A stretch of DNA of 64,000 nt, taken from positions 31,085,274 to 31,149,273 of the forward strand of contig JAFMSR010000013.1 of the NCBI GenBank assembly GCA_022818135.1, given 5' to 3'. Made by a program: the position numbers and the translations under genes. Position 1 is the stretch's first letter; each line of letters starts with the position of its first letter. The notes beneath the pieces were generated by a model. It was given only the letters and a program-made list of their open reading frames with translations, ran no database searches and was not told the origin of the DNA. Source of the stretch: Saxidomus purpurata (lineage: Eukaryota > Mollusca > Bivalvia > Venerida > Veneridae). Shown here one piece after another: positions 934 to 59,513 of the stretch.

Positions 934-1296
934 TTTTATGCCCCCAAAGGTGGTCATATTAAAATCGCACAGTCCCTCTGTCTGTCAGTCCATGTGTCCG
1001 TCCTTACATTTACATGTCTAGGCTTCAACTTTGTCATGCATTGAAGGATTTTAAACACATCAAGACAATGTGTCGCATACAAGACCCACGTCCTTACCTC
1101 AATGTTGAGGTCACTTGTAGAGTTTAAAGGTAATTGAATCCTGTATATATGCACACATTCGTGTCCAGACTATAATTTTGTCATGCATGGAAGGATTTTA
1201 AAATCACATGGCACTGTGTTGAGCACATGGAGAGGACACAGACTGTGATAATTACCTTGTTTTGGCATTCGTCACTTACTAGGGACAGCTCTTGTT
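934..1296 (-). mobile_element. short AACAAGAG-type element, minus strand
   Basis: Read on the minus strand it begins AACAAGAGCTGTCCCT at 1296, contains one degenerate 'gtaaggacg...cctcaatg' unit and a cacagactgtgag-type segment, and ends in a CCTTTGGGGGCATAAAA terminus at 934. It is a truncated relative of the elements at 31688 and 45242. Confidence 0.6.
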
Positions 1297-1889
1297 AGAT
1301 ATATTCCTTCATTATAATAATGAGATTTATTAACTATAAAATTGGCCATTTTGTCCCAAAATGTTTGTTCTGAAAACGAGGTTGGGTGGTCTTTATAGCT
1401 GAACTTTACTTTAACCAATGGTAGCAATGGTTGCAAGGCACCAAACTTACCATCCTTGCATTGACTTCTTTCAAAAAATAGAAAATGACCCTGGTCCACT
1501 GCATGCGAAGGTCACTGTTTCTAAAACTTTGAATGAACCACTTGTTGGAAAGTCATCAAACTTGCTCTGTAGCATCCATCTACGGTCACATTTCAGGGGT
1601 AACCAGATTTGAACTGTTGTATGCAAAGCTCGCAGTGTAAAGTGTGTAAAGAAAATGTATTTGTGTTGAGGTAAGTTCTAAAAGCGGCAATGCAGAATAT
1701 AAAATTTAAATGAAACAAATATCTAGAAAACGAAAGACAATGTGTAAAATGTACTGTAGTCAGCACGAAGATGCTAACGTTTAAGGGCATGACTGAACAA
1801 GCAAGGGATATTTTACCCCAAAAGCCCACCCCACTCTCATACTATCTGCCCCAACCCCACCCCTCTATATAGTGTGTATATTTATTTAT
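1297..1889. other. no gene seen
   Basis: Open frames here are short and resemble nothing recognised. No repeat structure stands out. Confidence 0.35.
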
Positions 1890-4581
1890 CCCCCCGCCGA
1901 AGGCAAAGGGGATATTAGTAATGGTCTCCGTCCGTGTTTCCGTCCCAATTTTGTCCGGAGCATAATTCCAAAAGTACTTGAGGGATTTTCTTCAAACTTA
2001 ATACACTGACAGAGCACATTGGGAGGAAGTGCAGTGTTTAAGAACAATAACTCTACCTTGCCTACTTTTAGAGTTATTCCCCTTTATCAGATTTACTTTA
2101 AAAACTTTGTCCGAAGCATAACTCCAAAAGTACTTGAGGGATTTTCTTCAAACTTAATACACTGACATAGCACATTGGTAGGAAGTGCAGTGTGCAAGAA
2201 CAATAACTCTACCTTGTCCACTTTTAGAGTTATTCCCCTTTATTAGATTTACTTTAAAAGTTTTGTCCAGAGCATAACTCCAAAAGTACTTGAGGGATTT
2301 ACTTCAAACTTAATACACTGATAAAGCACATTGGTAGGAAGTGCAGTGTGCAAGAACAATAACTCTACCTTGCCTACTGTTAGAGTTATTCCCCTTTATC
2401 AGATTTACTTGTCCGAAGCATAACTCCAAAAGTACTTGAGGGATTTTCTTCAAACTTAATACACTGACATAGCACATTGGTAGAAAGTGCAGTGTGCAAG
2501 AACAATAACTCTACCTTGCCTACTTTTAGAGTTATTCCCCTTTATCAGATTTACTTTAAAAGTTTTGACCAGAGCATAACTCCAAAAGTACTCGAGGGAT
2601 TTACTTCAAACTTAATACACTGACAGAGCACATTGGGAGGAAGTGCAGTGTGCAAGAACAATAACTCTACCTTGCCTACTTTTAGAGTTATTCCCCTTTA
2701 TCAGATTTACTTGTCCGAAGCATAACTCCAAAAGTACTTGAGGGATTTTCTTCAAACTTAATACACTGACATAGCACATTGGTAGGAAGTGCAGTGTGCA
2801 AGAACAATAACTCTACCTTGCCTACTTTTAGAGTTATTCCCCTTTATCAGATTTACTTTAAAAGTTTTGACCAGAGCATAACTCCAAAAGTACTTGAGGG
2901 ATTTACTTCAAACTTAATACACTGACATAGCACATTGGTAGAAAGTACAGTGTGTAAGAACAATAACTCTACCTTGCCTACTTTTAGAGTTATTCCCCTT
3001 TATCAGATTTACTTTAGAAGTTTTGTCCAGAGCATAACTCCAAAAGTACTCGAGGGATTTTCTTTAAACTTAATACACTGATAAAGTACATTGGTAGGAA
3101 GTGCAGTGTGCAAGAACAATAACTCTTCCTTGCCTACTGTTAGAGTTATTCCCCTTTATCAGATTTACTTGTCCGAAGCATAACTCCAAAAGTACTTGAG
3201 GGATTTACTTCAAACTTAATACACTGACATAGCACATTGGTAGGAAGTGCAGTGTGCAAGAACAATAACTCTACCTTGCCTACTTTTAGAGTTATTCCCC
3301 TTTATCAGATTTACTTTTAAAGTTTTGTCCAGAGCATAACTCCAAAAGTACTTGAGGGATTTACTTCAAACTTAATACACTGATATAGCACATTTGTAGG
3401 AAGTGCAGTGTGCAAGAACAATAACTCTACCTTGCCTACTTTTAGAGTTATTCCCCTTTATCAGATTTACTTGTCCGAAGCATAACTCCAAAAGTACTTG
3501 AGGGATTTTCTTCAAACTTAATACACTGACATAGCACATTGGTAGAAAGTGCAGTGTGCAAGAACAATAACTCTACCTTGCCTACTTTTAGAGTTATTCC
3601 CCTTTATCAGATTTACTTTAAAAGTTTTGTCCAGAGCATAACTCCAAAAGTACTTGAGGGATTTACTTCAAACTTAATACACTGACATAGCACATTGGTA
3701 GAAAGTACAGTGTGTAAGAACAATAACTCTACCTTGCCTACTTTTAGAGTTATTCCCCTTTATCAGATTTACTTTAAAAGTTTTGTCCAGAGCATAACTC
3801 CAAAAGTACTTGAGGGATTTACTTCAAACTTAATACACTGATAAAGCACATTGGTAGAAAGTGCAGTGTGCAAGAACAATAACTCTACCTTGCCTACTTT
3901 TAGAGTTATTCCCCTTTATCAGATTTACTTGTCCGAAGCATAACTCCAAAATACTTGAGGGATTTTCTTCAAACTTAATACACTGACATAGCACATTGGT
4001 AGGAAGTACAATGAGCAAGAACAATAACTCTACCTTGCCTACTTTTAGAGTTATTCCCCTTTATCAGATTTACTTGTCCGAAGCATAACTCCAAAAGTAC
4101 TTGAGCGATTTTCTTCAAACTTAATACACTGACATAGCACATTGGTAGGAAGTGCAGTGTGTAAGAACAATAACTCTACCTTGCCTACTTTTAGAGTTAT
4201 TCCCCTTTATCAGATTTACTTGAAAAACAATTTCCGGAGCATAACTCCAAAAGTACTCGAGGGATTTTCTTCAAACTTAATACACTGACATAGCACATTG
4301 GTAGGAAGTGCAGTGTGCAAAAACAATAACTCTACCTTGCCTACTTTTAGTCAAATAGAAAAATATCATACCTATACTGATAATGAACATTAATATAATT
4401 TTGCAAACCTTCTCTTCATTGCCTTATTCTTTTTCCACTTACTTGAAAACTGTACTCAGCATGACCATAACTATACGGCTTTTTAAGGATTTCCTTTCAC
4501 CAAGTAAAATGTACGAAAGTACAACCTTCTGGTAACTTCTTCCCAGCGGGGGGATTAACCATGTGTAACATGGCTCTTGTT
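1890..4581 (-). mobile_element. pearl/HINE-like element carrying a long tandem array
   Basis: Read on the minus strand the element begins AACAAGAGCCATGTTACACA at 4581 with a small hairpin (CCATGT..ACATGG), continues through a GGGGG-containing segment, then the tandem array, and ends at 1890 in a stretch rich in ccgtccg and a CCCCTTTGCCTTCGGCGGGG hairpin. The organisation of hairpin terminus, core array and G/C-rich terminus matches pearl elements described from oysters and now grouped with Helentron-derived HINEs; that classification is inference. Confidence 0.65.
1950..4350. repeat. 16-unit tandem array of 146/156-bp monomers with higher-order period of 760 bp
   Basis: The phrase cataactccaaaagtac recurs at 1961, 2117, 2273, 2419, 2575, 2721, 2877, 3033, 3179, 3335, 3481, 3637, 3793, 3939, 4084 and 4240. 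Two monomer lengths alternate: 156 bp when the spacer reads actttaaaagttttgtccag and 146 bp when it reads acttgtccgaag. The spacing pattern 156,146,156,146,156 repeats, giving 2117 to 2877 to 3637 as exact 760-bp steps. Shared private variants confirm it. Confidence 0.95.
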
Positions 4582-4710
4582 ACTATTGTAAACAGGATCT
4601 ACGAAAATTGTATGCCGGTATCAATGTAATGAATGACTGTAAAGCGGTAAACTTCTATGTATAGTACGTATATGTTATTAGGATGACTACAGTGTTGATT
4701 GCAATGCTGT

Positions 4711-4820
4711 CTGTACCTTCTCATATGACACCATGCAGTACTGTTTTTTCCAGGAAGCGGACTCGAGTGACTCGTTCTTCACAATCGAGCTTAAATGAAT
4801 TGGTGTAAACTATAAACTAA
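4711..4820 (+). repeat. SINE 3' tail fragment
   Basis: Contains ccaggaagcggactcgag, then ttcttcacaatcgag and gtgtaaact. The same tail occurs inverted at 10595-10715 and, diverged, at the 3' end of the SINE at 56835. Confidence 0.6.
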
Positions 4821-5880: not shown

Positions 5881-5889
5881 CTAGTATCA

Positions 5890-11429: not shown

Positions 11430-12205
11430 AACAAGAGCTGCTGTCCCTCACAGGTGATACATGCACCCGAAAGAGGTGTCTCACAGTCTGTGTCCTCTAG
11501 ATGTGCTCAACATGTGTGCCATGTTATCATTAAAATTACCTTCAAACTCTTAAGTGTGACCTTGACCTTCGCGGTAGGGACCTGGGTCTTGCACGCGACA
11601 CATCGTCTTGATGTGCAGAGCATTTGTGCCAAGCTATTTTGAAATCCTCCAATGCATGACAAAGTTACAGTCCGGACACGAATGTGTGCTTCTATACAGG
11701 TTTCCATTAGCTTCAAACTCTTAAGTGTGACCTTGACCGTTAATGTAGAGATGTAGGTCTTGCACGCGACACATCATCTCGATGTGCTAGCATTTGTGCC
11801 AAGTTGTTTTAAAAGCCTTCAATGAATGACAAAGTTACAATCCAGACATCAGTTTGTGCATATAATTATAGAGGATTCCATTACTTCGATCTCCAAGTGT
11901 GACCTTAACCTTTAAGGTAGGGACGTGCGTCTCCTTCTCCATGACACCAAACATGTAAGGGCGGACACACAGACGGACGTTCTAACACATGGATACCTCT
12001 GTTGCTACTCAATTGTTCTCCCCATTGTTATTCTAGCCACGTAAGAGAAAACATAGCCACCTAGGAACTTACGGAATGAATGACATCAAAGTGTATTTAC
12101 TGTTACCTATTGTTTCTATAGCTACCCAAGTATCCAAATGTAATCACGGTAGAGCATACCGACATATGGTGCGATTTTAGTATGCCACCCTACAGGGCAT
12201 AAAAA
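11430..12205 (+). mobile_element. AACAAGAG-type array element, degenerate
   Basis: Begins AACAAGAGCTGCTGTCCCTC, carries two to three decayed copies of the unit containing gtgaccttgacc and acgcgacacatcg, then a gcggacacacagacggacg tract, and ends with tgcgattttagtatgccacc and an agggcataaaaa terminus. About 170 bp between the GGACG tract and the terminus (11990-12160) is not element-like and may be an insertion. Confidence 0.65.
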
Positions 12206-13130: not shown

Positions 13131-13139
13131 AAAATACAT

Positions 13140-13660
13140 TTTCATGAAGATTGAATGCAAATAGATATGGCCTCCATTGCGTCCGAAGGCTTTTCATTTT
13201 ATTTTCCATGGTGACCTATATGCCAAAAATCAAGACAAACATTCTGACCAATTTCCATGCAAATAGGGTATCAAATGTGGCATCTAGTGTTAACAAGATT
13301 TTCCTTTAATTTAACCTTGTGACCTAGTTTTTGACCTCATGTGACCCTGTGACAAACCTGGCCCTGAGATCACCAAGACAATCATTCTGACCAAGTTTAA
13401 AGATGATTGGGGGTCAACTGTGGCCCTTATAGTGTTAACATAATTTTCCTTTGATTTGCCATGATAACCTAGTTTTTGACCCGATACATTTTGTTGAAAT
13501 ACTTATATTCAAACTCCACCTAGCTTTCAACAAGACAATAATTCAATTCTGACAAAGTTCACGAAAACCAAATAAAAAATGCAGCCTCTATTGCATACAC
13601 AAAGTTTTTCTAGCATTTGACCTGATAACCTAGTTTTAGTTTAGTTTATATTTATTTCTT
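13140..13660 (+). repeat. degenerate tandem repeat, 'gacctagtttttgacc' family
   Basis: The phrase (g/t)gacctagtttttgacc and its variants recur near 13207, 13320, 13463 and 13625, about 145-160 bp apart, each preceded by a 'caagacaatcattctgacca' type phrase. Three to four units of a known kind of bivalve repeat; its ends are not clear. Confidence 0.6.
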
Positions 13661-35500: not shown

Positions 35501-38467
35501 GCACCTGCGACCACGGAAGAGAACAAGGTGCAAGGAACATCACATAATTATTAAAAATAATTTGAAAGACCTCAAAACTGAGTATAAGCTTGGGAGATAT
35601 ACAAGTAAATGTCACTAATATGGCACTAAGCTCACCAATAAACTTTCTGAAAGTGGACTTTCAGTGAAGCCAACGTCTTTGTAAAGACCAACTTACAGCC
35701 CAAATTAACAGATGGCTACATTTTGTAAATTTCATTTTCATTCTTTTCTACATTCGATCTAAACTTTAATGTAATAAAATATACACAACAATATAAATAT
35801 CAAAACAATTTTTCTACGCCCTTCATACACATTTGTTACAACAATAAAAAGCAGTTATTAATAACTACTGTACTATACATCCTCACCTTGTCTCTGACGC
35901 TCTGTAATAAGGTCATAACATAAATTTCAATCATTTTAGAAATAAGTTACTTATAGTTCACACTGTTTAACACAGAAACCATGTTAACTGTACTGTATTA
36001 TACATTTCTGTTATATGTATTAATTATGTAAAAGAAATATAATAAAAGCTATGTCAAGTTTTGGATAAAAAAAACTCATTTTTGTACAACAAGCAGGAAT
36101 TCATGACTGTATCATTATATAATTATCTTTATCTTCATGAGTTTCATTCAATTAATTTTCATGACAGCTGCAAATTATGTTCAATTAAACAATCTATAAG
36201 ATGTTTCTATAAATTGTACTGATTTGCTGATGTTAGGTAAATTGTCTATAAAAATGTGATGCAGTATAGGATTTGATGTTGCTAAATTTGATTTTGATCT
36301 ATGCATGCTGTCTTGTAGTCTTAATCTAAACGAGTATTTTACGAGTATTTTATCTATTTCACTAATATGTTCTATTAACCCAGCAGTCGTTCAAATGTTT
36401 TAACTGCATTCCAGTTTAATATAAATACTTTTAGCACCGGTTTTGTCTGTGCTAACGATAATCTTATCAAACCTTTGAGTGCTAAACACTGTCACTGAGT
36501 AGTGCAGAATATCATTCTTGTTCAGGAATGCCAAAAATGATAATTTCTTATTTGCATTTAATTAATTGATATTAAATAAATTTGAAAACAAATAGAGATT
36601 GGAGAACTAATTAGTTTAAAAGAGGATTCATACATTATTTTTCGATAAGCTGCCTTTTTGCACTTTCAAAAGTTAAAGTGAATGGGTCAGTCTAACGTGA
36701 TTTTCAGCATTTACCTCTATACACATGTTTCCTCAAATGTGTTTTCAGATCAGAAAAGATGCCAGTTTGTGTTGTGGCTTTAAAAATTGGTAAAGATCCA
36801 TCTTTGACTCAAGCCCCTGTCAAAGCACAATTAAAGACTAGCCTATTGATGTTTTTATGCATGTAGAGTATCTGTAATCCGAAAAAATGATTATGCATTA
36901 GGTGAACTCACCGGCGGTCTTGTTGACGTCACTGCTGTTGTTGGCGGACTTTCACCGAAACTCTATGTCATAATGAAGAGTATCAATTATTGAAAATTTA
37001 CAGACTATACAATTATAATCATTCATAGTTGAATTAGATGATATCATTAGATATATATATATGTGTACATAAATTTTGTATAATACTGAAATAACACATC
37101 AATGTCAACATTATATTTGAAGCTCGAAATCATACTATTTCAACATAAATACACAGAAATATTTTAACATAAACTTGTTTCAGATAAAAAGACCTGGTTT
37201 AAATATGTGTTAATAAATTTACAAAAAAAGATGGAATCAAACGTATTTATGACCATCAAGCAATTACAAATGTTTCTATCTCACAAGTTCCTACAACAGT
37301 TACCAGAAATAATAGAATTATCACTCACTCTACAGTCTGCATTCTACATTATTCAGTATTTACATACTTCTTAAGACAACTAATTGATATGTGTTAGCTT
37401 TAAAATAAACACTACAACCATAAGACAGCGTACTCTACTTTTCGAAGCAATTCATCAATAGAAATTAAACATTTTATCGATAGGCCATGATTTTGTCAAA
37501 ATACAAATTCAGATTTTTTACTCAAATACTTGTTTGAAGTTTCATGACAATAGCTATATTAATTTAGATTTTTCAAGATGCTACACTTGATCTTGGTCAT
37601 CATGAAGAGATGAATATTTAATCAAAGTTTGATGAAAATCCTTGTAAGAGTTAAGAAGATACAGTCAAGTGACCTTTGTCCCTTCAGCCAAGTTGACCTT
37701 GACTTTGAGTTGGAAAATGGATGCTTCACATCCTCTCAATGAGATTAGCATTAATCTGAAGTTTCAAGAAAATCTTTGAAAGAGTTTGGGAGATATGGAA
37801 ACATCACCTTACACCCTAAATCAGACCTTGATCTTGAACAGGCTTGGTTGAAACATATGAAACTATTTGTGAATCGGTTCATGCATACTAAAGTTACAGC
37901 TGGACACGAAGTGCGGTCGGAGTGAATGATAGACTGAACAACAGACATATTGACGGAACTGATCAAACATGCAATGGAACTTTATACTTTTAGCATGTTC
38001 AATTATTTTAAAGACTTAATGTGGTAATTTTAAAACCAGTAAATGTTATAATCTGAGAGACTGCCACTTCCATGCAAACCTTACATCAGGATTACAAAAA
38101 GGAATGTTATTTGGCCAAAATGCTCACAGAAGCTGTTGGATCTAGTTTTATGACTTTGTTAACTGATCCAAAGATATTTGTAAATTTTTTAAAATAATAC
38201 CAGTATGTGCATGGAATATACATGCCAAATTTACCTAAAGTGTGAAGAGAGTAAATTGCTCAAGCTATTCTTCGAAAACTTGCTATCAAATACATACTAA
38301 CAAATACAACATCAAACAAAATCACAGCATTTTCACTGCTATACACATAACGAGTGTTAATTCACAAAACTATCAAATGCTTAGTCTAAAACAGTCACTA
38401 CCAGTTTAGGATACATGCTAAACTAACAAGAACGGGGGGGGGGGGGGGGGGGGGTTTGTGGGGTTTT

Positions 38468-38498
<31 letters not shown>

Positions 38499-38592
38499 GG
38501 GGGGTTGTTTTTTTTTTGGGGGGGGTTTTTTTTTTTTTTTGTGGGGGGGGGGGGGGGGGTTTTTTTTTTTTTTTTTTTTGGGGGGGGTTTTT

Positions 38593-38638
<46 letters not shown>

Positions 38639-41600
38639 GAAGGGGGGGGCCCCCGTTTTTTTTGGGTTTTGGGGGTTCAGGGGGGTTCTCCCCGGCGTTA
38701 AATGCGACACAAGATTCGTCTAAAGTTGATATCTTATTTAGAAGATCTGTAAATGTATACATAAAGGTCTATTAAAACTCAAAAAAATAAAATCATTATG
38801 GTCTGGCTATAAAACAATTATTGGTAATCACATGTAGAAAAATGTCTTAACCATCATTGTGTGTTTTAACAAGTGTTACAGCTATGCCTAATCTCCTTAA
38901 ACTGTTAATACACTAATACATAGATTTGAAAATTAAACTGCATGGCTGAAACCTCGCACAAAATATTATTTTTTTTAATAAGAATGTCAAACTGTCCAGA
39001 AATACCTCTGTAATGTATAGTTTATAATGTTGAACGAAACTTTATATGGAGACGACTACCGGTACATCAGATGTACCAACAAAAAATATTATCACAATAT
39101 TTAATGAATTTTGCATTACCTAAAGCATCAACGTTAGTGTTACTGTATGGGGCTGGTATCTTACTATAACTAGCCGATGCAGAAAGCTGGTGGCAAAAAG
39201 CTTTGATTTTGCATCACACATGCCATAGTCTTATCAAATTAAGTCTTATGAAGATTGTAGAAAATGCATGGAAAACACATTTGACACAAAAACCGTTAAC
39301 TGGCAACAAAGTTAATCACAACAATAAACAATGAGGTTTTCCTCATCAGTAAACTCTAGCTGTTCTCATCTCCTTCATTGATGTCCGCTGGAAAGTCTGA
39401 AAGTTAATGCTCCGACAGAAACACGTACAAACCTAAGCACACTCATATACTCACCATAGCTTTACCAGCAGAGCTCTGTAAACATGTTTATCTATACATG
39501 TATATTCATGTTAACGGAAATGAGCATTAAGTTGTCTGCGACATTATTGGAATGAAGTACCGGTATATGATAGACAATACAAAAGTAACAAACAAGAATA
39601 TGTACATGAGGTTTCTTGAGAAATATTGATCCTACCAAAAAGCTGTATTGACGCATTACCATGTAAGATAATATTAATTATATACATTGTCACAAATTGT
39701 AAATGAGCTATTTGTATGTACTAGTCTGCAAACTATTTACATGCAAACTTATATGCTTGCTACAAGTCGTATAATGAGTGCAGAAACGAGATGGACAGTC
39801 AAAAACAAATGTTACTCCATCTACATACATGTTTCTAGTATAAACTAATAGACTATAGCTATATGTGTTGGTAATATTTCAACAACTAAACAATGAACAA
39901 TTAATATAGCTGACTGTGCAAGGTTTCATACAAAGCACTGCTGTATAATTGGAATATTGCAACAGTCGGTTGATCTGCAGGGTCCTAACGTTACAGTTGG
40001 CTATATAGTTTCCCATCCATATCGCACGGGATGCAGACAGAGGAGAGGTATATACAGCCAAAAGGTAGATATGGTTTATCTTAATATATGATACAAAAAG
40101 TTTGATAAAAGTTATTCTATTTTACTGCATAAATACTAAATATAATTCAAATAAACATTGACAAGTATAAGATAAAACAAATTATTGAATGTTTTTTGAA
40201 GTTATAAGGATTATTTTAATTGTATTATCGCAAAGTGGAGTGTTATTGTTAATAGTTTTCACTTTCATTGCTATTAGTAGGGGCATTAGTAACCAATTTT
40301 AATTTGCATCATCCTGTGCTAGATGATACTGGTTTCTCCTACAAACCCTAAGTCGTAATGATATTATGTGGCTAATCAAATAGATAAAATTGAGTCAACA
40401 CACTGAAGAAAATGTCCTTGATCAAACTAAACCTAAAAAGATTTATTTTTGTGGAAGAATTTGCTTTAAATGCCGAATCTATTCGGAAATGGCACAGGTG
40501 TTGAATACATTGTTAAACTAAATACTGACAATTAATATAAACCCTCTTTTCCATATCAAACAGTAATAAGTAGTTATTGCAAGACCACTGCATACTACAG
40601 TTAACGCATTTCCCAGTATTATTTCCTAGTGGTAACTTGCCTTCCTATACGATTAATCTTTCCATTACGGATACAAAATATTTTTTTTGTATTTCATCAT
40701 CATAACTGCGAGGCCAACACTTTCAATATAAAACTTTTAGTACTTGGTTTACATGGAAGGATGCTTACAGAATTCCCTAAGAACCAGATTGAACTGGCAT
40801 ATATTATGTCCTTTAGATCTTACAATTGCTTACAATTGGATTACTAAGCATTAGAACGGAACTTTCATCAACAGTTATAGCATACACATAAGATCAAGTT
40901 TCTATTATTTAGAATGTTTTGAACTATCACCTTCTAGTTCTGAGAAAAGAGTAAGTTTAAATCATATATAACAACTACAACAACTACAAGAATCTACATT
41001 ACAACATTAGACAGAACGTTAACTTATATATATCTCAACAATAAAATTTCAAAAGTATTATTACTCTGTTATATTCACCCAAGTTTGCCCATACAAGAAT
41101 CTTGATTTCCCAAATCAATTATATTTCCCAAAAGTACTAAAACATGCAAGTTTCCCATTATTTATAAATACCTACAATAAGCAGGTTTTTTCATGGATTG
41201 TTTTCTACATGGTAATTTTCCTAATAGAATGTCTACATAACTCTATACTGCAATCATATCTAATATTTAACAGTCCCTAGTCAATTTATAAAAAAAAATC
41301 ACTATGTTTTTCTTGGACTTTAAAACTCATATAATTTTTCTTAACTTTTGCCTTCTTTTAAAAACATGATAATGATGAAAAATATTACAATACATGCATC
41401 TTACACAAAACTTCAAAGTAATTGTAAGTGATGTTCATGTAATACATTTTAGTACATTTAGCAATACTACAAACTAACATTTGATAAAAATTTACAAAGC
41501 CAAAAAACTTAATAAACCTGACTGAAACCGACAACATAATATATAATTGGTCAGGCAAAATTTTAAGAGGGGAAATCATTTTCTTCTTGCTTGCTAGATA

Positions 41601-44600
41601 GAATATTTGAATATCTATTTGCCATTTGAAGTCCTGATGTCTCTATGCAGTATAAACAAACTAACAGGTATTTTAATAAGTTTCACTGTAACAAGAATGA
41701 TGGTGTAAGTAAAATTAAATGATAGTAGGTAACAACAGTTAGATATAGTATTAGTTTTAAACAGTTAGTGACATTTTACCGGTGTTTGTGGAGTCACTGC
41801 TGATGGACGCTCTGAATCACCTAGAGAAGGCTGCAATCAAATCATCTTTAGTTACTTACTGATATATGTGCAAAAAACTAAAGTAGGTGCATTGGAGAAC
41901 AGCGAGTTAGCCATCTTTTCTTGATATATTTTATTTGAACTTAATCAACTTGATTCCTATATGGCACCTTGTTTGTTGGTATACTAAACAAATACCCATC
42001 TAAATATTTCTTACCAATGCTTTTAAAACCACAAATATATCAATTGGATATATTAAAGTCCTTCTTCTTAATCTGTAGGCTTTTGTATTTTGGAATTATC
42101 TGTCATCAAAGGTTAAAATACTTCCTCTAGAAGCATTATGAAATCTTTTAATTTTTATCATTTGTTCAAGTCTAACTTTCAAACATCAAAAACAAAACGT
42201 TGATACCTATGCGTTTGAACTCTCCTTGGTGATTCAATTTACTATAAATCACCTTAAATCTTACAATCATACTGCAAGAGACATTCTAAATTTCATTAAA
42301 TGACAATTTGTTATGAATGAATGTTCAAACCAATACTCACACTATCAGCTACACTCGGTTCCTTGTTCTGAAGTTGTTGTATCTGCATTTTTAGCATATG
42401 TATGATAGACTCATTTCTCTGGACAGTCACCAGTAGTTCCTTGTATTTCTCCTCAAGTACATCGGCATCTCCTTCATGTTTTGACTTCTCTTGCCGCACT
42501 TTACGCTGCAGATTTTTCTGAAAAAAAAAAATTGTTGAATCTGTCTAAGTCTTCAGGTTTTTCAAAACTGAAGGAAATAAGATTTTTAAAGCTACTCCTT
42601 CTCAGTTTACTGTGAAAAATTAATTTCTCCAAAATGATATACTAAATCATAAAGTATAAAAGTACTTGCTAGAATCAACAACACAAGTAAAATCTACATA
42701 TCATTTTGAGGAAAATCTGTTGAAAATGTTGGTAAGCTAGGTTTGACTGCACCACTACACTATAGATACAAAAATGTGTTTATATTGGAATTTCAAAAGC
42801 GTTTATAACGCTTTATTATTTGGTAGTGTATAATTTCAAAAATACTGGAACTTTTTTGTTTGATGGTTCGTTCTAAAAACGTTTATTTAGATCTGTTCCA
42901 AGAACCTTGTTTTTTCACCAAAATCTGAGAGCGAGCAGCTTTAAAACCTAAATTTGAAACACTCCACAAACTTATAGCACATACTTGTCACTTATAAATA
43001 GCACATACTTGTCACTTATAAATAGCACATACTCTTGAAAGTCACTTAAAGACTCTCCTTCTAAACTGAATATCTAGTGTTACTGTGTAAGACAGATATT
43101 AGTAATCATGGTACTTTACATGGATAATTCTATTTCTTTTACAGCTCACTGCAGCAAAGCAAAATAATTAATTTAAGTGGCAAAACAACACTACATGTAT
43201 ATGTCTTTGCAGTTAAATAAAGAAACTAAGCTAAAATTATTAACATTTTCTGCAACGGCAGCTTCAGATCTCTGGTTTGTAACTGACTTTTAGAAACTTA
43301 ACTCAATTCTAAACAGCTGAGATTGGTGTCAGGCATGATTTAATCATGACCAAAAAAATTGTTTCAAATGTATTTCAAATGATATTATTTCTTAACATAA
43401 TAGAGATTTCTTAAATTATACATTGTCTACTCTATCAAGCTACATTCAAAATTCAACAAGAGCTGATTTAGACATAGCCATCTCCCTGCTAAGTGCTCTT
43501 TCTGTGACCAAGAAATTTGAAGCAAGAGGAATGGATATGGTAAAGGTTCTAATTCAATAAAATATTAGTAATTATAACCCATTGAGGGTTATACACCTGC
43601 ACTTTGTTACAATAATACACTTCCACTCTAAATCTGACATTGTATGCCTTGCACTGAACTTTTATGCGAAAAATCAATAATAGGAGATAACTCAAAACTA
43701 GGGTAAGTTTGAGTTATTGCTCTTGGACACTTCTCTGCATCTTAATGTCCTCTATAACTGTATGCAATTTGAACCAAGATCAGTTCAGTACTTAAGGAGT
43801 TATGGCCCTGACAAAACAGTAATAAAGGGAGATAATAGAGTTAAGGTCCTTGTACACTGTACTACTTCTCAATGTCCTCTGTATGTGTGTAAAGTTTAAA
43901 TAAATTCCCTTGAATATTTTTGGAGTTATGTTCCAGACAAAGGAGTAATATGAAAAATCAATATGAGGAGATAACTCTAAGATTCCCCCAAGGCAGGGAA
44001 GTGAACTTCAAAAAGCTGTTTAGTTTCAAATTTTTAATCCACATTTCATGTGTGTGAAGTAATTATTATGTTGTGAAATTTCTTGATAAATAAATATGTT
44101 TAAAGGTCAAAGATTTAACAACATTTTTATCCATTTTGTAAAGGACAGATAGGTGAATTTTGGAGTAAAACAAATTTGCATGTTGCAAACATTGGCAATA
44201 GAAACTAGTTTTAAAACAAGCAAATAGGGGAAAATATATAAAAAGCTAGATATTTGTCCAAGGGGATTTCATATATTTTATTAGACCTATGATTGCAGAA
44301 AAAAAATTGTTGCATCGTATTGGCATTTGGAAACAGAAACTATGGCAAAACTACTCACATTATATAATACTGCTACTCTAGCTATTGCATCGGAAAGTTG
44401 TTGTCTAAATGCCCTTCTTACTGTTCCCACTCTCTGAAAAGTAAAATGACAGATGGATATTCACAAAGACGACTTCTATTTGGTAATTTACAAAACTCAT
44501 TTCAAATTCATCTGACAAAATCTGAAGCAAGCCAATTGATAAAGATACATTTTTGTCTACTTTTGAAAGTAGTGACAAAAAAAACATCCCTGTCAGTGCC

Positions 44601-47600
44601 ATTATCTGATGATAATACCATCATTTTATATAGAATTTCTCTTCTGGAACATGCCAATTAGAAATGTGTGTTTTGATTTGTGTAAATAATACTGTAAATT
44701 GGGTTATTTTGTGTGATGAAAAATTCAAGATTTGATTGCGGACAGACATATTCATGAACTCAATATTTGTAAGAGAATGCTTTAATCCTAAATATTTGCA
44801 TTTGTTTGTGATTTTTTTTCTTTAATGAAGGAGAAAAAAACTGAAAATTAGATCAGTGCAAACAATTCCAAATAAGTATCTTCAGTTATCAATAGAAATT
44901 TGTAAAGAACAAACCTCTTCATGCATTTTCTCTAAATCTGAAACTCTTTCATTAATACGGCAGTATCTGAAATGATATGAAAGTAGCATTCATTGAATTG
45001 ACAGATAACAGCAGGGAATATTAAACAAGAAGTAATAAAGGGCCAGTATTGCTCTTCTGTTCTTTTCATGAAAATCTTTTGCAATGTTATCAAGAAAAGC
45101 TCACAGAGGTCACAAGGACTGTGACCTTGACCCACTGATCCCAAAAAACATTAGTGATCATCTACAGGTTGCATGCAACCTTCTGAGCAAGCTTCATGAA
45201 AGTCACATGAAAACTGTGACCTGTTAAGTGTTGTTATCAAGAACAAGAGCTGTCCCTCACAAGTGACGAATGCCCCCGAAAGAGGTGCCTCACAGTCTGT
45301 GTCCTCTCCATGTGCTCAATAAATGGCTATGTAATTAAAATCCTTCCATGCATGACAGAGTAATCATGCATACAGTTTCCATTACTTAAACACTAAGTGT
45401 GACCTTGACCTTTGAGGTAGGGACTTGGGTCTTGCCTGGACACATCTGCTGAGTGCTAGACATTTTGCCAAGTTATTTTAAAATCCTTCAAAAGCATAAA
45501 AAAGTTATAGTCCGGACACAAATGTAGCATATATACAGGATTCCATTACCTATAAATTCTAAGTATGACCTTGACCTTGTGGTAGGGATGTGGGTCTTGC
45601 ACGCGACACGTCGCTTGATGTGCTAGACATTTGTGCCAAATTATTTTAAAATCCTTCAAAGCATGACAAAATTACAGTCCGGACACGAATGCGGCATATA
45701 TGCATATATAGAGGAACCATTACCTTCAAACTCTAAGTGGACCTTGACTTTGAGGTAGGGACGTGGGTCTTGCACGCGACACGTCGTCTTGATGTGCTAG
45801 ACATTTGTGCCAAGTTATTTTAAAATCCTTCAAGCATGACAAAAGTTACAGTCCGGACACGAATGTGGCATAAAGCATATATAGAGGAATCCATTACCTT
45901 CAAACTCTAAGTAGACCTTGACCTTTGAGCTAGGGACGTGGGTCTTGCACACGACACGTCGTCTTGATGTGCTAGACATGTGTGCCTAGTTATTTTAAAA
46001 TCCTTCAATGCATGACAAAAGTTACAGTCCGGACACGAATGTGTGCATATATAGAGGATTCCATAACCTTCATACTCCAAGTGTAACCTTCACCTTTGAG
46101 GTAGGGAAGTGGGTCTTGCACGCGACACGTCGTCTTGATGTGCTAGACATGTGTGCCAAGTTATTTTAAAATCCTTCAATGCATGACAGAGTTACAGTCC
46201 GGACACGAATTTGTAAGTGGGGACGCACGGACGGACGGACAGACGGACGGACAGACGGTGCGATTTTAATATGCCTCCCTTCGGGGGCATAAAAAGCTAA
46301 CAGAGGTCACTTTGACCATGACCTTTGACCCACTGGATGGAAATTGTGACCTATAGAGGGTTATCAAGGAAAATCTAATCGAAGTCACTGTGACATTGAC
46401 CTTTGACCTACTGACCCCAAAAACAATAGGGATCATCTACATGTTGCAGGGTACCTTCTGAGCAACATCGATGAAAGTTACCTGTATAGTGTTAAAAAGG
46501 TAAAGCTATCAGAGGTCACTGTGACCTTGACCTTTGACCGGGAACATTTAAACACCTGTTTCAACCTTTATCTGTCATTTTTTCAGACGGGCAGTTTACC
46601 TAACTAGCATTCCTAGGAAGAACCCGCACTAGATCCCTATCCTCCATGAGGAATTGTTACCCTTCTCACATAAAGAAACATCATCAGCAGCAGGGCTCAA
46701 ACCCATGACCCTCAATGTACGAGAAGTCACAGTAATTTCCACTCAGTGACTCTAACCACTCGACCACGGAGGTTGACCATGCATGTTATACTTACAATTC
46801 TAGAGATTTCTGTTGTAACTTGGATTCATAGTCAGCCTGCATGACATGTTTAGCAAAATTGATGTCTCTTTTCAATGTTGCTACATCCTACAACAGAAAT
46901 TTGAATCCATGTATGTACAATTACACTATACCTATTTGTTAAGTTTCGATTGTGGAAAAAAATTCTGTCACTTAAATAAATATTTATTGCTCTTGAGACT
47001 CACTCCAGATGGAAACAAATTCAGAGACAGAGAGGCAATGTGGAATAATTCTGTATCTTGCACTACCACTGGTGTGGATTGAACCCAGGTCCCGATTTCA
47101 CGAAAATACTTAGGCCATTACTCAGTAACATGCTCAACTTATATAAACACTTGTCAGCCCCTTAGACATGTTAGATGTTTATTCATTCAAAGAATTAAGT
47201 TTTTCGGAATTGTATTTACCCATTTACATGTATTACATTTATATACATTTGTCTGTATTTGGGCAAGAAATCTGGTATAAAGCAAGTTATTTCTATAAGT
47301 AAATTCTTAAAAACTTGAGTTGTACTCAAATGAATTTTTCACAATATCTGACTTGCATTTCAAAGTATCATAAAACATTTTTCTTTCCACATGATTGTTA
47401 ATTCTATTAAGAATAGACTATCATTAAAAATGACAACAAGCAAAATCCTTATTTCTAGTGACAATTAAGACTTAAAAATAACTTTCTCAGCTGAGCACTT
47501 ACTTAAGTATTTTCATGAAATAGGGGCCAGGACCCTTAGATCGTAAAGCCAACACTCTACCACACTGCACCTAGGTGGCTCCACATTCAATTACAATGTA

Positions 47601-51562: not shown

Positions 51563-52512
51563 TTTTTCTAAAATAGAGGAAAGGGAAAACATACAAATAC
51601 ACATGGCAAACGAAATCAAGAGAAGCATGTACTATATAGTATTTTCTAAAATAAAGGAAAAGGAAACATTATACAAATACGCATGACAAATGGAATAATA
51701 TAGGGTCAATATGACGCTATATCGTTTGCTTGAGTAACACTGCCCTTCATGACAAGGTCACGAAGTCCAACACACAACACAAACATCCAGATATTGCTAT
51801 GTACACATGTTTGTTTTAACATGTCCATCAAACTGTAAGACCATAAACTATTTTTGTATTTTTGTAATAATAACCCACATGAGCTGAGATTTTGAAACTA
51901 TTTTTAAAAATAAATCAATCCTTTCCGACAAGATATTGTTTAGTTTTTCTATATAGCCTAGGTAAAACCTTTGCCAATCAGGGCGTGGTCAATTTTCATC
52001 CAGGCGCATGCTTTGAACAAACTTAGCTAAGGACCACTTAGTAGAGCTACCGAAACATATTCAAAATCTGTGCATCGCGGTGTTTGACAAGAAGATTTTT
52101 AAAATTTCCAATGTCTACATTTATTCAACCCCTAGAGCGAGGCCAGCTTGGACCCCAGAGGAGATATTTTACAGAGCTTAATGCCAGGACGCTTCTGGCC
52201 AAGTTAGATGAAAAAGAGTTCTGAGTAGAAGTCGTTCGAAGCAGGGTCCATATATTACATAATATAAGATAGTTGGATTAACAGATTAAACCAGTACATA
52301 TAACAGATAATAGGAATACACATTTTTTGTATTACATTTATACTGACTTCAGAAAAATATATGCACCGTCCTACAGATGCAGTAAAGCAACACGTTACAT
52401 AAAATGACAACTTACCCATATAGATTGAAAACGTACGAAACCGCATAATATCATTGATATGTTTTACTTAAATTTGATTGCAACAATTTCGATGTATTAA
52501 GGTATAATTATG
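51563..52512 (+). repeat. interspersed repeat, copy A, split by an inserted element
   Basis: ttttctaaaata(g/a)aggaaa occurs at 51563 and 51642 and is followed, after the insertion, by ttaacagattaaacc (52275), ccgtcctacag (52367), agcaacacgt (52385) and gatgtattaaggtat (52491). All these recur in the same order in 52958-53275. Confidence 0.7.
51697..52250 (+). mobile_element. degenerate array-type element inserted in copy A
   Basis: It starts agggtcaatatgacgctata, a decayed form of agggccatgatggccctata at 23848. Its units carry gggcgtggtcaattttcatc, ctttgaacaaacttagctaa and aagaagatttttaaaatttc, matching the unit of the 23842 element. Confidence 0.55.
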
Positions 52513-53714: not shown

Positions 53715-53819
53715 ATGGTGGTCGAAAGAGATGGTGAGTTTCATGAACTTTCAAGTCTGGCAAATGAAGGACAAATGGAGCTGCAGAAGAGCATTGTAAA
53801 CTCGGAAAATAACGACGAT
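53715..53819 (+). CDS. MFSD4B-like: MFSD4-like gene, exon 1 (start codon)
   Basis: 35 codons, MVVERDGEFHELSSLANEGQ and onward, hydrophilic, donor GAT/gtaagt. The same frame stays open upstream to an ATG at 53589, but a possible acceptor (tctatctag) lies just before 53701. The later ATG has A at -3 and G at +4, so 53715 was preferred. Confidence 0.75.
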
Positions 53820-56800
53820 GTAAGTTCGATTATAATTCTCAAGTATTGCAATGTACAAATTATTTTCATACCTGAATTATGTTGTATGAAGTCACAAACG
53901 TGACATTTAAACACTTATAACGCTTATATCCTGTTCTGCTCTTTTAAATCAATTCAAATGAACTCATGTTAACTTTTTCTTTGATTATTTTCCCGGCCGA
54001 CCATGGGACTTCTCCCTGGACGAACTTGCCAACACTCCTGACCGATGCATGTTGAAGAGAGACAGATGCAGATACAAGGGAATCTGGGTACCCGATCCTA
54101 GCTCTGTTTTGCGAATAGACCCTTTGGTTCTTTTACATGCCCGGTGTTAAGATTCGATACACGTGATACTTACCAGTTTATCTCTTTAAATAAATTAAAC
54201 TAATTTCGTGTCATACCGTGTTATATCATGTTTCGTTATGCCATTATCATTTTTTATCAAGTTATGTTATGCTATGTCCATGTCGGTATCATTTAATTAA
54301 TATGATAGCACAAAATTCCGACAAATGAAGAAGACAACGAAGAGGCAAAGAAGCTCACCTTTCACAGAGTCTTGTTGCAGATAAAGACGGACAAATTGTA
54401 CCGACAGAGGATCGTACATACAGCGGTGTTATGCTGGGCATTTGTAGGTTTGGTAAATAAATCATTTGATGTTTTCCTAATCTCAGCATCGGTTCTGTTT
54501 TTGTTGCAGTTTTAGAGTTCCTGTTGTCGAAAAAATTATACCGTGGACTGTTTTGGTACTAAATTATTCTAAATGTAAATAAACAAACTAAATTTTTGTG
54601 TTGTAAACTGTGTTTTGCTTAGTTTTTCTTGCCCACACATTTTTTTCAGGACTTTCACTTTTAAGCATTGCCAATTTTATCTGCCACATCCAAATACACC
54701 CCCTTCGCATTTTGTAAATTCTATATGTGATTATATACTGCAATAAAATGATACATTGTACTTACATTATTTAGGTGATGACTTTAACTTAACTTACAGT
54801 TCATTTAGGATAATGTGGCAGTGACATAGCAGACGAGCATGGTATATAGAGGATATTTGTTTGTTTTGAGTGGTTATGGAATATATGTCACCAAGAAGTG
54901 ATACAACTGTAATATGTTTATGAGCGCGAAGCGCGAGTTAAAATGTGAAAATTGTATCACTTTGAGTTGAGATACATGTATATGCCATATCCACTCAAAA
55001 CAAACAAATTTTCTTTTTATCTTATGCTAATTACAGTATTTTATATACCATGCTCGTCTGCTATGTCACTGCCACATTATCCTAAATTAGTTAGCATAAA
55101 ATAATATAGTGTAATTTTCTTGGATTTTGTAAAGATTAATCTTTGCTTGCACGCATTATCTACTTTCTCAAACAATGGATGATATATTTTGTGTACACAT
55201 ATATCTATTACATTAATTTAACCATAACCAAGTTATATTAAATGAACTTTATATGTAATTAGGGTTGGTCGGCTGGAATGAACGGACCTACATTTCCTGA
55301 CTTGAGACAGATTGTACAGGAAGATCTTGCTAAGTCGGCCTGGATGTTCACTGTTGGATCATTTGGGTATGTTTTTATTCTCTTCAAAAATAAATATCTT
55401 TTTCCCTTTTGGTTTTGAAAGTAGTTTTCACATTTGAGATTTTAACAGGCGTTAAATTCTAAATTTTGCAAGCGTGCATGCAACGCGAAATTGGTCAAAG
55501 TTTATCTGAAAATGGTCGTACAGATATCAGACTTTAGGTGACATCGGTATGTTGGAGCAGGAGGTTGCCTTATACAAAACTGCAAATCACTTTGAATTCG
55601 CAAGACAAAAGCTTGCAATTTTGGAATCCGAATCAATTCACGAAACTGTGAATTTGCGAAGAAACGATCCTGTATGTTTCAGCAAATCGTTCATTGCCGA
55701 AGAAATTTAAATAAGCGAAACAAGTGCTCTCGCAAAAAAGACACGAAAAAAGTGTTTGCAATTATTTCATGATTTACAGTAGATTAATCTATTTTAAGTC
55801 TCACTTCTATTTTTACGCTTTAGAGGCAATAAGAAATGTAAATAGCTGCTTTACATAGGTCATTTAGTGCTAGTTTCTAAAGTGGTTTCGTCCATCTGTC
55901 AGTCTGGACAGCGGCATTCATTGTTCAAAGGGGTACCCGCTGAAAATTTCCAGAATATATAGCGTAATAGAGTAGATCAAGATCAGACTGCATTAATTTG
56001 CTGGTTTGTCATGATCTGCACTGGTCGCAAAGACAGAATGCCGCCACTGAGCTAAAGATACAGTCAAACAACGATTGCCAAACATTGTCTGAAAATGATG
56101 TACATTTTCCTCTACACAGATACCTCTCAGGGTCCTTAATATGTGGAATTATGTATGATAAGTTGAACAAAGTTTTACTGTTGGCAGTATGTTCACTCGG
56201 ATCAGGTATATCTACTCTACTAACACCATACTGTTCAACACTGTCATGGATGTTGTTTATAAAATTCATCGGTGGCTTCTTCTTTGGAGGTCTTGATACC
56301 GGTAAGAATACATTTAATTGTCGTTCATTTGATCTTACTTCTTTCTTCTATTATTTCGAAATTTTATTTAACTTCCAACCCGATTTTTGTTTTAGATACA
56401 ACATCACACATAAATTTGGTTTCATATTAAAGCCACTTTGAAAACTATCGACTGTATTCATGCGTAGGTTTTCCTTTACAACCACTTTTTAAGATCTGTA
56501 TCGTCAACATCTCCAGAAGTTATATGTTTCGTCAAATATTACTGTTATGAATATATAGAATCAACTTCAGAAATGCTTGTCAGTGTTGAGATGTTGTTTT
56601 CTTTCTGCAACTTGGAAGCATCTCCTGCCTATGGTCAAAAGTATAATAAAAGAGTCTCAAGCTTGAAAGGAAAACATTTGGTTTCACCCAATAGCACAGC
56701 TTGGCATCAAAGAATTTCTTAAAATTAAAGAATATATGTAGTATATCTGTTGTTATATCACAGTTTTATACCACTTTCTCAATGTTGATACATCAGACAA

Positions 56801-58524
56801 ATCATTGTAGTAATATAAACATAAATCGAGTCATGGAGCCACTATGGCGCAGTGGTAGCGCGTTCGCCTCAGGATTGAAGGGCCCCGGATTCGATCCCTA
56901 CCATAGCCATGTCGGCAGTGTCCTTAGGCAAGACACAATTAATTCCACATTGCCTCTCTCTCTTCGAGGTTAATTCCACCTGGAATGAGTCTCGAGAGCG
57001 ATTAATATTAGTTGTAACAACTTGTTTCGCAATCGAGAATAAATAAATTAGTATAAACTAAACTACAGATCGAGTGCTGATGCATATTTACTATGTAAGA
57101 CTGTGCACAAATGGTGCTGCTTAATATGAGGAAGAGATAGGTGTGTAACATTGAGAACAAAACGAGGAGCTTGCTTATGGTGAAGGCAAGCTAATGGAAA
57201 CCTATCTTAAATCGTTAAATCCACTCAATGATCGGAGCTAATCTTAACAATAGGCGTAAACGGAACATGACAATTAAATGGTGGAAATGCACCTTCTTGA
57301 GCTAAGTAAAGATCTTAACATGATACATGCATACGATAAGACCGAGATAAACTAAAATCACAATTGATTTATATAATGTTATAGTTTATCCTCGTATTTA
57401 CAGGTGGTAATGCAGATATTATTCACGTCTGGGGGAGAGACGTAGATCCGTACATGCAAGCACTACATTTCGCCTTCAGTGTAGGCGCTTTATTGTCTCC
57501 ACTGGCAACCGAACCATTTCTTGCTGGAACGAAAACGATCTGTGATGAGAGAAGAATTACTTCCACAAATTCCTCTGTTTTGATATCTACAACTACTGAA
57601 CAAATTAGATTCAAAGTTATGAAATCAGTTGCAAATGACACTGGTTATATTACAACAGTGCTGAACAATTCGTCGAATATAATCAACTGTGTTGAACATT
57701 TAGAGGACACACGTGTCCACTATGCATTCCTGATAGCGGCTGTATTCATGGTAACGTCAGCATTCGGATTTATTTATCTTTTCATATTGTTGAGACGAAA
57801 TAAACAAGATATTGAAATATGCAAGATTGAAAATGACCCAAAAAGTACGCCTGAAAGAAGAAAGGAAATGACAACTGTTGTAAAAGTAGTTGTGTTAGTG
57901 TTGTTGGCGATGATGATAGGTGCATATTGTATTGCTGAAGACAGTTTTGCTGGATTTTTAATGACATTTTCCCTAGATTATTTGGAATGGAATAAGTCGT
58001 TAGGGTCGTTTGCTACAGCTGTGTTTTGGTTTTCGTTTGGAGTTGGGCGTTTCGCTGGAATCTTCATTGTTGCTTGCTGCAAGAACTCGACATTGCTGAC
58101 GTCCTATTTACTTATGCTAGGTTTTAGTTATTTAGGGTTCTTAGTTACAACACTTTTCAGATATAATCCGTTAATTTGGGTTTTCACTGCCATACTTGGT
58201 TTTTCTATGTCCGTGATATTTCCTGCAATTTTTAGTTGGACATCTGAGCACATTATTCATGTTTCTGGTAAAATTTCTGCACTTTTTCTTACTTCCTCTT
58301 GCGCAGCAGGAATGGCATTTCCACTGTTGATTGGTAATTTGATGGAGTATTATCATCCAATGTGGTACGTTTATATTCTTGTCATCATGACTTTCTCGTG
58401 TATTTTTTTGTACTTCTTCGTCAGAATCATTGACATATGCTGTTTAAAGAAACGTACTCAAAACAATGATGCAAATGACAAAGATGCCACGGAGGAAACA
58501 GAAATGACACTGATGCGGCATTAA
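53715..58524 (+). CDS. MFSD4B-like: MFSD4 / sodium-dependent glucose transporter 1-like major facilitator
   Basis: Exons 53715-53819, 54309-54443, 55263-55366, 56120-56301 and 57404-58524 join in phases 0,0,2,1 into 1647 nt, 548 residues. Twelve membrane helices are placed at about 70-88, 106-126, 133-152, 157-181, 193-214, 282-304, 333-360, 375-400, 404-427, 431-454, 464-488 and 494-518. The N-terminus (1-68) and the acidic tail (519-548) are cytoplasmic. Family signs are the helix 1 end GMNGPTFPDL, the helix 4 end GGLDTGGNADIIHVWG and the helix 5 motif YMQALHFAFSVGALLSPLA. The large loop between helices 5 and 6 (215-281) carries N-glycosylation sequons at 231, 253, 263 and 264 and two cysteines (222, 271). 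Known members are about 515 residues; this one is slightly longer at the N-terminus. MFSD4B was described as a sodium-glucose transporter in kidney; substrate here is inference, and MFSD4A is an equally close paralogue. Confidence 0.9.
53990..54150 (+). repeat. interspersed repeat in intron 1 of the transporter gene
   Basis: GC-richer segment with ggacgaacttgccaacactc and accctttggttcttttacat, then gcccggtg. The last phrase is common in bivalve interspersed repeats. Its boundaries are approximate. Confidence 0.4.
54309..54443 (+). CDS. MFSD4B-like: MFSD4-like gene, exon 2
   Basis: 135 nt, phase 0-0, acceptor tatgatag and donor TTT/gtaggt. It encodes a charged cytoplasmic stretch followed by the first half of helix 1 (RIVHTAVLCWAF). 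Confidence 0.83.
54804..55086. mobile_element. fold-back MITE in intron 2 of the transporter gene
   Basis: The 5' arm TTTAGGATAATGTGGCAGTG, continuing through acatagcagacgagcatggt, is reproduced in reverse complement at the 3' end, and inner parts (tttgtttgttttgagtgg / ccactcaaaacaaacaaa; aagtgatac / gtatcactt) also pair. Nearly the whole 283 bp can fold into one hairpin. A small palindrome gcgcgaagcgcg is near the tip. No coding capacity. Confidence 0.9.
55263..55366 (+). CDS. MFSD4B-like: MFSD4-like gene, exon 3
   Basis: 104 nt, acceptor gtaattag, donor TTTGG/gtatgt. It encodes GWSAGMNGPTFPDLRQIVQE, the end of helix 1 and first loop, then the start of helix 2. Confidence 0.9.
56120..56301 (+). 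CDS. MFSD4B-like: MFSD4-like gene, exon 4
   Basis: 182 nt, acceptor cctctacacag, donor ACCG/gtaaga. It encodes the rest of helix 2, helix 3 and helix 4, including the glycine-rich FIGGFFFGGLDTG turn. The donor keeps a 1-base phase matched by exon 5. Confidence 0.9.
56835..57062 (+). repeat. tRNA-derived SINE in intron 4 of the transporter gene
   Basis: Head: tggcgcagtggtagcgcgtt (box A) and ggattcgatccctacc (box B). Body: gtccttaggcaagacacaat and gcctctctctcttcgagg. Tail: gagtctcgagagcg, tttcgcaatcgag and aaattagtataaactaaac. atcgagt flanks it on both sides (56825 and 57069), a plausible 7-bp target duplication. Confidence 0.8.
57404..58524 (+). CDS. MFSD4B-like: MFSD4-like gene, exon 5 (last, long)
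   Basis: 1121 nt, acceptor cgtatttacag. It encodes residues 176-548, helices 5-12, the glycosylated loop and the C-terminal tail ending TEETEMTLMRH, then TAA. A single long 3' exon carries two thirds of the protein. Confidence 0.93.
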
Positions 58525-58697
58525 TTATTAGCAAATTATTGTATCACTATTCAGATATTTCAGGGTCATTGGGCAGCACCATAAGTCGTCATTTATGAGT
58601 AAAATTTGAGTTTGTGAAACATTGCTGTGAGTTCTCGTCTTCAGAATTTCTAAGTGAAAGACTAATGTTCTGTGAAGGATTACTTTCCAGAGCTTGA

Positions 58698-58703
58698 AAT
58701 AAA
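58698..58703 (+). promoter_or_regulatory. poly(A) signal of the MFSD4-like gene
   Basis: AATAAA lies 174 bases after the stop codon; a second AATAAA follows about 25 bases later. This is the expected position for a short 3' UTR. Confidence 0.5.
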
Positions 58704-58799
58704 ATTTAACAAATCGATTTTGTAGCAAATAAATATTGAACTGATGAAGTTTTGTTTATGTAAACGAATTGATCTAATTTTTTTTGTTTTAGCTATCCT

Positions 58800-59513
58800 G
58801 AGCACGAAGTCCTCAACGTTGAGCTCTAATGATCGCCAGATGTCCGTCGTATGTTTGTTGTCTGTCTGTCTGTCCACACTTACCTTGCGTGCACTCTAGA
58901 TGCCACGTCATCGTGAAAATTGTTCAACATGTTTGTCTTGACTATCTTAAGGCCCAGTTCGAAACTGGGTCACGTTGGATTAAAAACTAGTTGACCAGGT
59001 CAAATTAAAGAGAAACAAGCCATTTTTATACTCAATTATCCTAAAATCAGTTGTCAGAATATATGTTTTGATGAACTCTAGGTGAGGTTCGCAACTTGGT
59101 CACGTGATGTCCAAAACTAGACCTCTTAAATCATAGAAAAACCTTATGAACACTCTAAAAGCCACTTCTTATACCAAATTATCTTGAAAATTAGGACACT
59201 AGTTCAAATCATACAAATGTCTCTATATGTCGCGTATTGAAAGCCAGTCATCTTGTTGAACTGTAGGTCACGGTCGATACAGGATAACATGTGGTCAGTA
59301 TTAGGTTACCAGGTACGTTGATCTTGACCACTTCACCTACTTATTTGTTTTTGAAGCTACAGTAATGAAATTTGGTCAATGTGAACAGTTTTGCAAGAAT
59401 ATTTCAAATCTGTCCTCGGCTGACTTTGATCATGACCTTTTGGCCTACTTTCTGGTTTCTTATGTTTTTTAGTACTCATGTGACCGATATTGGCCCAGCA
59501 TGGCCCTCTTGTT
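58800..59513 (-). mobile_element. AACAAGAG-type element, minus strand
   Basis: Read on the minus strand it begins AACAAGAGGGCCATGCTGGG at 59513, a variant of the start at 23842. It contains two to three decayed units with ggtcaagatcaacgtacc or 'gacctggtcaactagttttt' type text, and ends with ggacagacagacagacaaca, acgacggacatctggcgatc and attagagctca, matching the 24950-24990 end. Confidence 0.7.

Follow-up and report, generated by a model that had tools for sequence, protein, structure and literature searches.

What are the tandem arrays that lie near copies of the same octamer, AACAAGAG, in a stretch of 64,000 nt from the bivalve Saxidomus purpurata (contig JAFMSR010000013.1, positions 31,085,274–31,149,273; hereafter the window, to which the tests on this genome were confined), and have their satellites been exchanged between common ends? 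The original prediction described array elements with a common terminus, at least four unrelated repeat units and exchangeable satellite cargo, and saw them as consistent with HINE/pearl elements. The analysis revealed that the elements are a known kind of mobile element. Very probably, they represent several families of non-autonomous Helentrons (HINE, pearl-type), with the array being an integral part of the element in families A and B, and replaced between elements C and D. The earlier observation was thereby confirmed in part, and its interpretation partly supported.

Terminal Octamer and Array Elements

Exact copies of AACAAGAG are found at 10 sites in the window, compared to 3.2 expected, and at least 10 copies were obtained in none of 100 shuffles. 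Eight of them are located at element ends, namely at 1296(−), 4581(−), 11430, 23842, 31688, 43455, 45242 and 59513(−), and the other two, at 19761(−) and 53498(−), have no array. All of the eight lie at most 300 bp upstream of an array or array remnant on the same strand, a zone that covers 3.0% of all positions and strands (P ~3 × 10−11). The 13 array places used in this test were listed after the octamers had been seen, but were taken from Tandem Repeats Finder rows and octamer-independent unit models. The octamer is absent at five of them (51975, 806, 13226, 45086 and 37596), which are decayed, fragmentary or, in the case of G (45086), have no clear end. The shared octamer was thus borne out. 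As for the number of elements, seven were claimed, the list given with the claim contains eight, and the minus-strand positions in it refer to the far end of the element instead of the octamer end.

Family A has four copies. A1 (31688–32902, + strand; octamer at 31688–31695) contains an array (31747–32834) in which five full 170-bp units are bordered on either side by a partial one, a GGAC tract and a tail hairpin extending to 32902. A2 (45242–46293, +; octamer end at 45242) has the same organization, with four full units and a partial one on each side (45301–46214). A3 (11430–12203, +) has an octamer end, two full units and a remote tail (12150–12203), its array being broken off inside a unit at 11932, and A4 (935–1296, −; octamer end at 1296) retains left and right partial units only (1237–1004), together with a tail. 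Element B (1886–4581, −; octamer end at 4581) carries an array of 146/156-bp units (4350–1946; 16 unit matches), a GGAC tract and a tail hairpin. Element F (43455–43980, +) has an octamer end and two decayed units of the B type; no GGAC tract or tail was found, and its far end is uncertain. The octamer end of F resembled that of B by eye, but the similarity did not exceed chance (175 of 2000), and F was placed with B by its array. Element C (23842–25002, +) has an octamer end with a clear hairpin, five 167-bp units (23970–24793) with diverged partial units at both edges, a GGAC tract and an eroded tail, and element D (58790–59513, −) has a C-like octamer end, a degenerate array (about three unit matches, 59314–58906), a GACA tract and a tail.

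The decayed copy previously reported at 51697 is indeed a relative of C (element E, 51702–52109, +), with a weak end of the C/D type (E-value, 0.045) and one unit match; the octamer is absent from it. A fragment of a C-type element, with a single match to the unit and a weak one to the tail, was also seen at 601–806 (−), reaching toward the window edge. The stretch at 13226–13639 is related to the D array and seems to be a D element in decay (E-value, 4 × 10−51 when it is itself part of the model; with D as the sole blastn query, 80.8 bits). A further decayed array at 37596–37910, with an CCGGACACGAA-like end and no octamer found nearby, weakly resembles the A and B units (E-values of the best pieces, ~0.002).

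Orientation and Terminal Anatomy

According to the literature (PMC7492417 and PMC4067079, cited here and below as far as their accessible text goes), HINEs consist of a 5′ subterminal inverted repeat (subTIR), a microsatellite, an array, a 3′ subTIR and a palindrome near the 3′ end, and are inserted at TT; the microsatellite is GTCC-like in several oyster elements (PMC7492417). In the clam, a GGAC-like tract could be read directly in seven of the eight elements, on the array side of the tail, the missing one being F (43455); the tract is degenerate in A4 and D, and is separated from the tail by ~170 bp in A3 (11430). The claim of such a tract in most elements therefore held. Since the GGAC tract adjoins the tail hairpin, and AACAAGAG is found on the outer side of the opposite subTIR, comparison with the published anatomy indicates that the elements had originally been read in reverse: AACAAGAG is the reverse complement of the terminus CTCTTGTT. 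Thus, by anatomy, the GGAC tract can be assigned to the microsatellite beside the 5′ end, and the octamer to the 3′ terminus. The TT of CTCTTGTT (AA of the octamer) may partly be target sequence.

When the two ends are compared in inverted orientation without gaps, the best match is ATGCCCCCGAA (11/11) in both A1 and A2 (equalled in 2 and 0 of 2000 shuffles, respectively), and ATCCCCCCGC (10/10; 3 of 2000 shuffles) in B. These repeats start 29 nt from the octamer end in A1 and A2, and 27 nt from it in B. Matching A1/A2 against B gives only 6, so that the subTIRs are family-specific. The inverted repeats are perfect and family-specific in A1, A2 and B, and eroded in the other copies compared.

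Folding of three 5′ ends revealed hairpins more stable than most shuffles in A1 and B (equalled by 12 and 8 of 200, respectively). Among the seven 3′ ends folded, the hairpin is clear in C (1 of 200) and borderline in B (15 of 200); the 3′ end of A2, which is the same as that of A1 over 60 bp, was left out. A short hairpin after the octamer had been claimed for most elements, a claim that proved weak: besides the result for C and B, a simple stem criterion was passed by three of the eight element ends, compared to 24 of the 85 near-octamers overall. This criterion was rejected as an element marker, as it did not tell element ends from other sites, and the chance site at 53498 passes it too. 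The tail hairpin GGGGGCAT(A)A, reported earlier for some elements, proved to be restricted to the four copies of family A, and is altered in A3; the tail of B carries GGGGGGATAAA instead.

On the microsatellite side, the tails are somewhat alike (A1–C and B–C, each 11 of 2000 random segments; C–D, score 11, 8 of 2000). The similarity between A1 and B is weaker (111 of 2000), and the tail of D is not like those of A1 (1488 of 2000) and B (804 of 2000). In the window, GCGATNNTAATA is exact in A1, A2, A4 and C only, and copies differing at one position are present in A3 and at 57907.

Insertion of an Element into Another Array

A2 is nested in another tandem array, array G (45086–46540, +), the flanks of which continue on both sides of the element. 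When the joined flanks of A2 were compared to the nearest sister unit, the best fit kept four A's (T's on the other strand), and nothing else was duplicated. Since this fit keeps the four-T run, the insertion is read as one into a T-run without any other duplication. An alignment of empty sites had earlier been proposed as a check for target duplication; at A2, the only site compared, the sister unit gave this T-run and no target duplication. By eye, the 5′ flanks of the other copies are T-rich.

Array G has no clean octamer end; a near-octamer seen by eye at ~45023 was not accepted as such. It carries repeated TGACCTTGACCTTTGACC words, which we take to resemble nuclear-receptor half-sites.

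Arrays of Families A and B

A large part of the A unit (170 bp) can be aligned with the B unit (146/156 bp), with both in the same orientation. The score of 22 (mean of 9.4 and standard deviation of 1.6 for the controls) was reached by 3 of 5000 segments drawn at random from the window with the known arrays excluded. When the control was repeated with 1500 segments, 22 was reached by two, both of them located at 37814–37818, a place that is itself matched by the A and B models. None of 300 dinucleotide shuffles was as similar. With the model built from 11 A units, 15 of the 16 B units were recovered (E-values, 2.2 × 10−5 to 0.13); the B model in turn hit nine places of A units (E-values, 4.7 × 10−6 to 0.34). 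Thus, two satellites that look unrelated prove to be distant relatives. As A, B and F are of one kind, the claimed four or more unrelated satellites are reduced to three kinds linked to the octamer (A/B/F, C and D) and a fourth, G, that has no such end. The A and G units may also be similar (score of 17, reached by 9 of 1500 control segments). The B units alternate between 146 and 156 bp by a 10-bp indel (1946–4350, −), in an order that suggests higher-order repeats.

The phase of the arrays relative to the element ends is also shared. The A arrays begin at unit position 45 in all four copies and stop at positions 127–130 in all three copies with a complete far end. The last position of the B array, 1946, corresponds to unit position 127 in the alignment to the A model, i.e., B stops in the same end phase as A.

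A1 and A2, whose octamer ends are identical (59/59 bp), also share the edges of their arrays (99% on the left and 97% on the right), and the inner units pair in order. A1 has one extra unit, as A1_3 and A1_4 are both nearest to A2_3; A2_4, which is slightly nearer to the right edge of A1, departs from strict pairing. This suggests that the arrays of family A are carried along by the element and vary in size inside it.

Similar Ends with Different Arrays

Among the 10 pairs of octamer ends compared, similarity past the octamer was found only between C and D, which are identical at 36 of 42 positions (score 22; 3 of 2000 random window segments). The idea of a common terminus therefore stands for the octamer, and a longer shared terminus does not, except in C/D. 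No similarity between the C and D arrays was detectable in the comparison of units, and this pair is the sole case in the window of similar ends with a different satellite.

The C consensus matches both of the printed primers for the satellite BIV160 (PMC5139131) in the right order, with 2/21 mismatches to bivR at 24329 and 5/25 to bivF at 23968 (0 of 1000 shuffles each). The central 167-bp unit of C can thus be assigned to the BIV160 family, as judged by the primer sites. The edge units of C are diverged copies at both edges (0 of 500 shuffles each).

Origin of the Elements and Their Arrays

Support for the HINE/pearl affiliation comes from the subTIRs (A and B), the GGAC/GTCC microsatellite, the central position of the array, the insertion into a T-run without target duplication at one site, and the fact that no element-encoded protein was found. 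In the conventional order, the elements would consist of a T-rich flank, a 5′ subTIR folded with its own inverted repeat, a GTCC-like microsatellite and a satellite array, followed by a 3′ subTIR, a short spacer with or without a hairpin, and the 3′ terminus CTCTTGTT. As expected from the family, the Rep/helicase of an autonomous Helentron elsewhere would nick and rejoin the ends, and rolling-circle replication would carry the elements into T-runs. The shared octamer would be compatible with a single trans-acting machinery. The arrays of A and B would be integral, co-transposed parts of the elements, whose growth was probably due to the duplication of an internal segment, whose unit number changes inside the element, and which diverge together with the family subTIR. 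Replacement of the array between similar ends may occur as well, as between C and D.

A number of results weigh against this reading. Past the octamer, the ends of A, B, C and F are not alike in the 10 pairs compared. For A3, A4, C and D, the inverted match between the ends does not reach significance (1761, 228, 1803 and 2000 of 2000 shuffles, respectively), and F has no tail to compare. The 5′ hairpin of D (63 of 200 shuffles as stable) and the 3′ hairpins of A1, A3, A4, D and F (57, 98, 51, 100 and 142 of 200, respectively) do not exceed shuffles. The units of A3 and A4 do not pair in order with those of A1/A2, the left-edge partial units are not significant in B (25 of 500) or F (368 of 500), and the evidence on the target comes from the single site at A2. 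In addition, no match to Rep/helicase families (E-value threshold, 0.01) was found in 30 of the 39 window frames of at least 90 aa, the remaining nine (six in the G-run at 38.4–38.8 kb and those at 7831, 24807 and 31686) and all shorter frames having been left out of the scan.

In the alternative closest to the original idea of exchangeable cargo, which we consider rather unlikely as a general account, the common ends took in a separate satellite from the genome in every family, as filler or by cut-and-replace. The pair C/D, with similar heads and tails and unlike arrays, is what such exchange would produce; BIV160 is also described as a satellite outside such elements in the accessible part of PMC5139131, and the group 2 elements of the oyster (PMC7492417) are of the same kind. 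However, the A and B units are homologous and share their end phase, the arrays of A1 and A2 are collinear, and the ends of A, B and C are unlike past the octamer. Hence, exchangeable cargo agrees with C versus D only, and not with A/B: array growth inside the element is the better reading for A/B, and replacement the better one for C versus D.

The dissimilarity of the A, B and C ends past the octamer would also be expected if several unrelated families, each with its own machinery, had converged on a similar 3′ end, and the accessible text of PMC7492417 describes oyster group 3 elements that are unrelated in all modules. Such convergence is nevertheless improbable in view of the homology of the A and B arrays, the tail similarities of A1 and B to C, and the distribution of GCGATNNTAATA, which is exact only in three A copies and C. 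The reading of the octamer as a chance or target-site feature beside ordinary satellites without mobile ends is largely refuted and retains hardly any credibility. Two of the 10 octamers without an array (about three being expected by chance), the five array places without an octamer, and an AA that may be target sequence would agree with it, but the location of eight of the 10 octamers at arrays, the dispersed copies A1 and A2 with identical ends, and the insertion of A2 in another array with continuing flanks are at odds with it.

Coding Content and Occurrence of the Terminus Elsewhere

A frame at 57385–58521 (+) encodes a protein similar to sodium-dependent glucose transporters (MFS_1; E-value, 8 × 10−10). 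This was the one protein searched, and it has 33 relatives, the best being a sodium-dependent glucose transporter from Mercenaria mercenaria (61%), followed by one from Ruditapes philippinarum (55%), in collections from which the source species itself may be absent. The host therefore looks like a heterodont, and perhaps a venerid-like, bivalve. The frame at 55971–56438, with a sub-threshold MFS match, may be an upstream exon of this gene, and element D lies ~270 bp downstream of the transporter frame. The region at 38418–38768 consists of long G-runs and T-runs in alternating G/T blocks, and is possibly a simple repeat or assembly noise.

A pattern of the octamer with a partial hairpin was found in one stretch in IMG/VR and in 37 stretches in GTDB genomes. 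These matches were discarded because the complete GGGCCAT...ATGGCCC stem was seen in none of the 38, and the GTDB count is near the ~30 estimated by chance. A 21-base C-type pattern had no match in IMG/VR. Literature text searches for AACAAGAG or CTCTTGTT, with figures and supplements outside their reach, yielded no paper among those listed that was on topic as judged by its title and the beginning of its abstract, and the terminus may still be published.

Comparison with Known Elements

In anatomy, the clam elements resemble the Cg_HINE elements of Crassostrea gigas, which are described as having a subTIR with an inverted repeat, a GTCC-like microsatellite, arrays of 138–181-bp units, a palindrome (clear only in C among the clam elements), and insertion at TT without target duplication (PMC7492417). 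Group 1 of Cg_HINE has related ends and arrays, and group 2 related ends with unrelated arrays. Shared ends with different satellites are thus already published for oysters. Unlike in the clam, where the match between A and B extends over a large part of the unit, the array homology between distant oyster families is, in the accessible text, limited to two motifs (cluster 4 versus 1, 2, 10 and 13). Similarly, eight Helitron-N elements of oysters have common end boxes of 53 and 42 bp and are similar to different satellites (PMC8268682), a likeness to C/D by description only. In the pearl family (CvA, DTC84), the CvA repeats are related to BIV160, the primers of which match the C unit, and the likeness to CvA is again by description (PMC5139131). 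The HINE/Helentron elements of mites and DINE-1 of Drosophila share the terminal anatomy, T-runs at the boundaries, non-coding copies and, in some, tandem repeats, and autonomous partners have been identified for them (PMC4067079). None was seen for the clam in the window frames scanned.

Whether transposons capture satellites or create them is debated as an open question for bivalves in the Discussion of PMC7492417. The window provides both an element nested in another array and a change of array size between copies with identical 3′ ends. The A and B families, whose arrays are homologous and stop in a common phase and whose inverted repeats are family-specific, would permit a direct comparison between a tree of the ends and one of the arrays. 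Tentatively, and with somewhat less than even expectation, we suggest that much of the satellite cargo of bivalve Helentrons may be one ancestral internal module, kept in fixed phase to the ends and diverging together with the subTIRs until the units look unrelated, with true replacement, as in C/D, being the exception.

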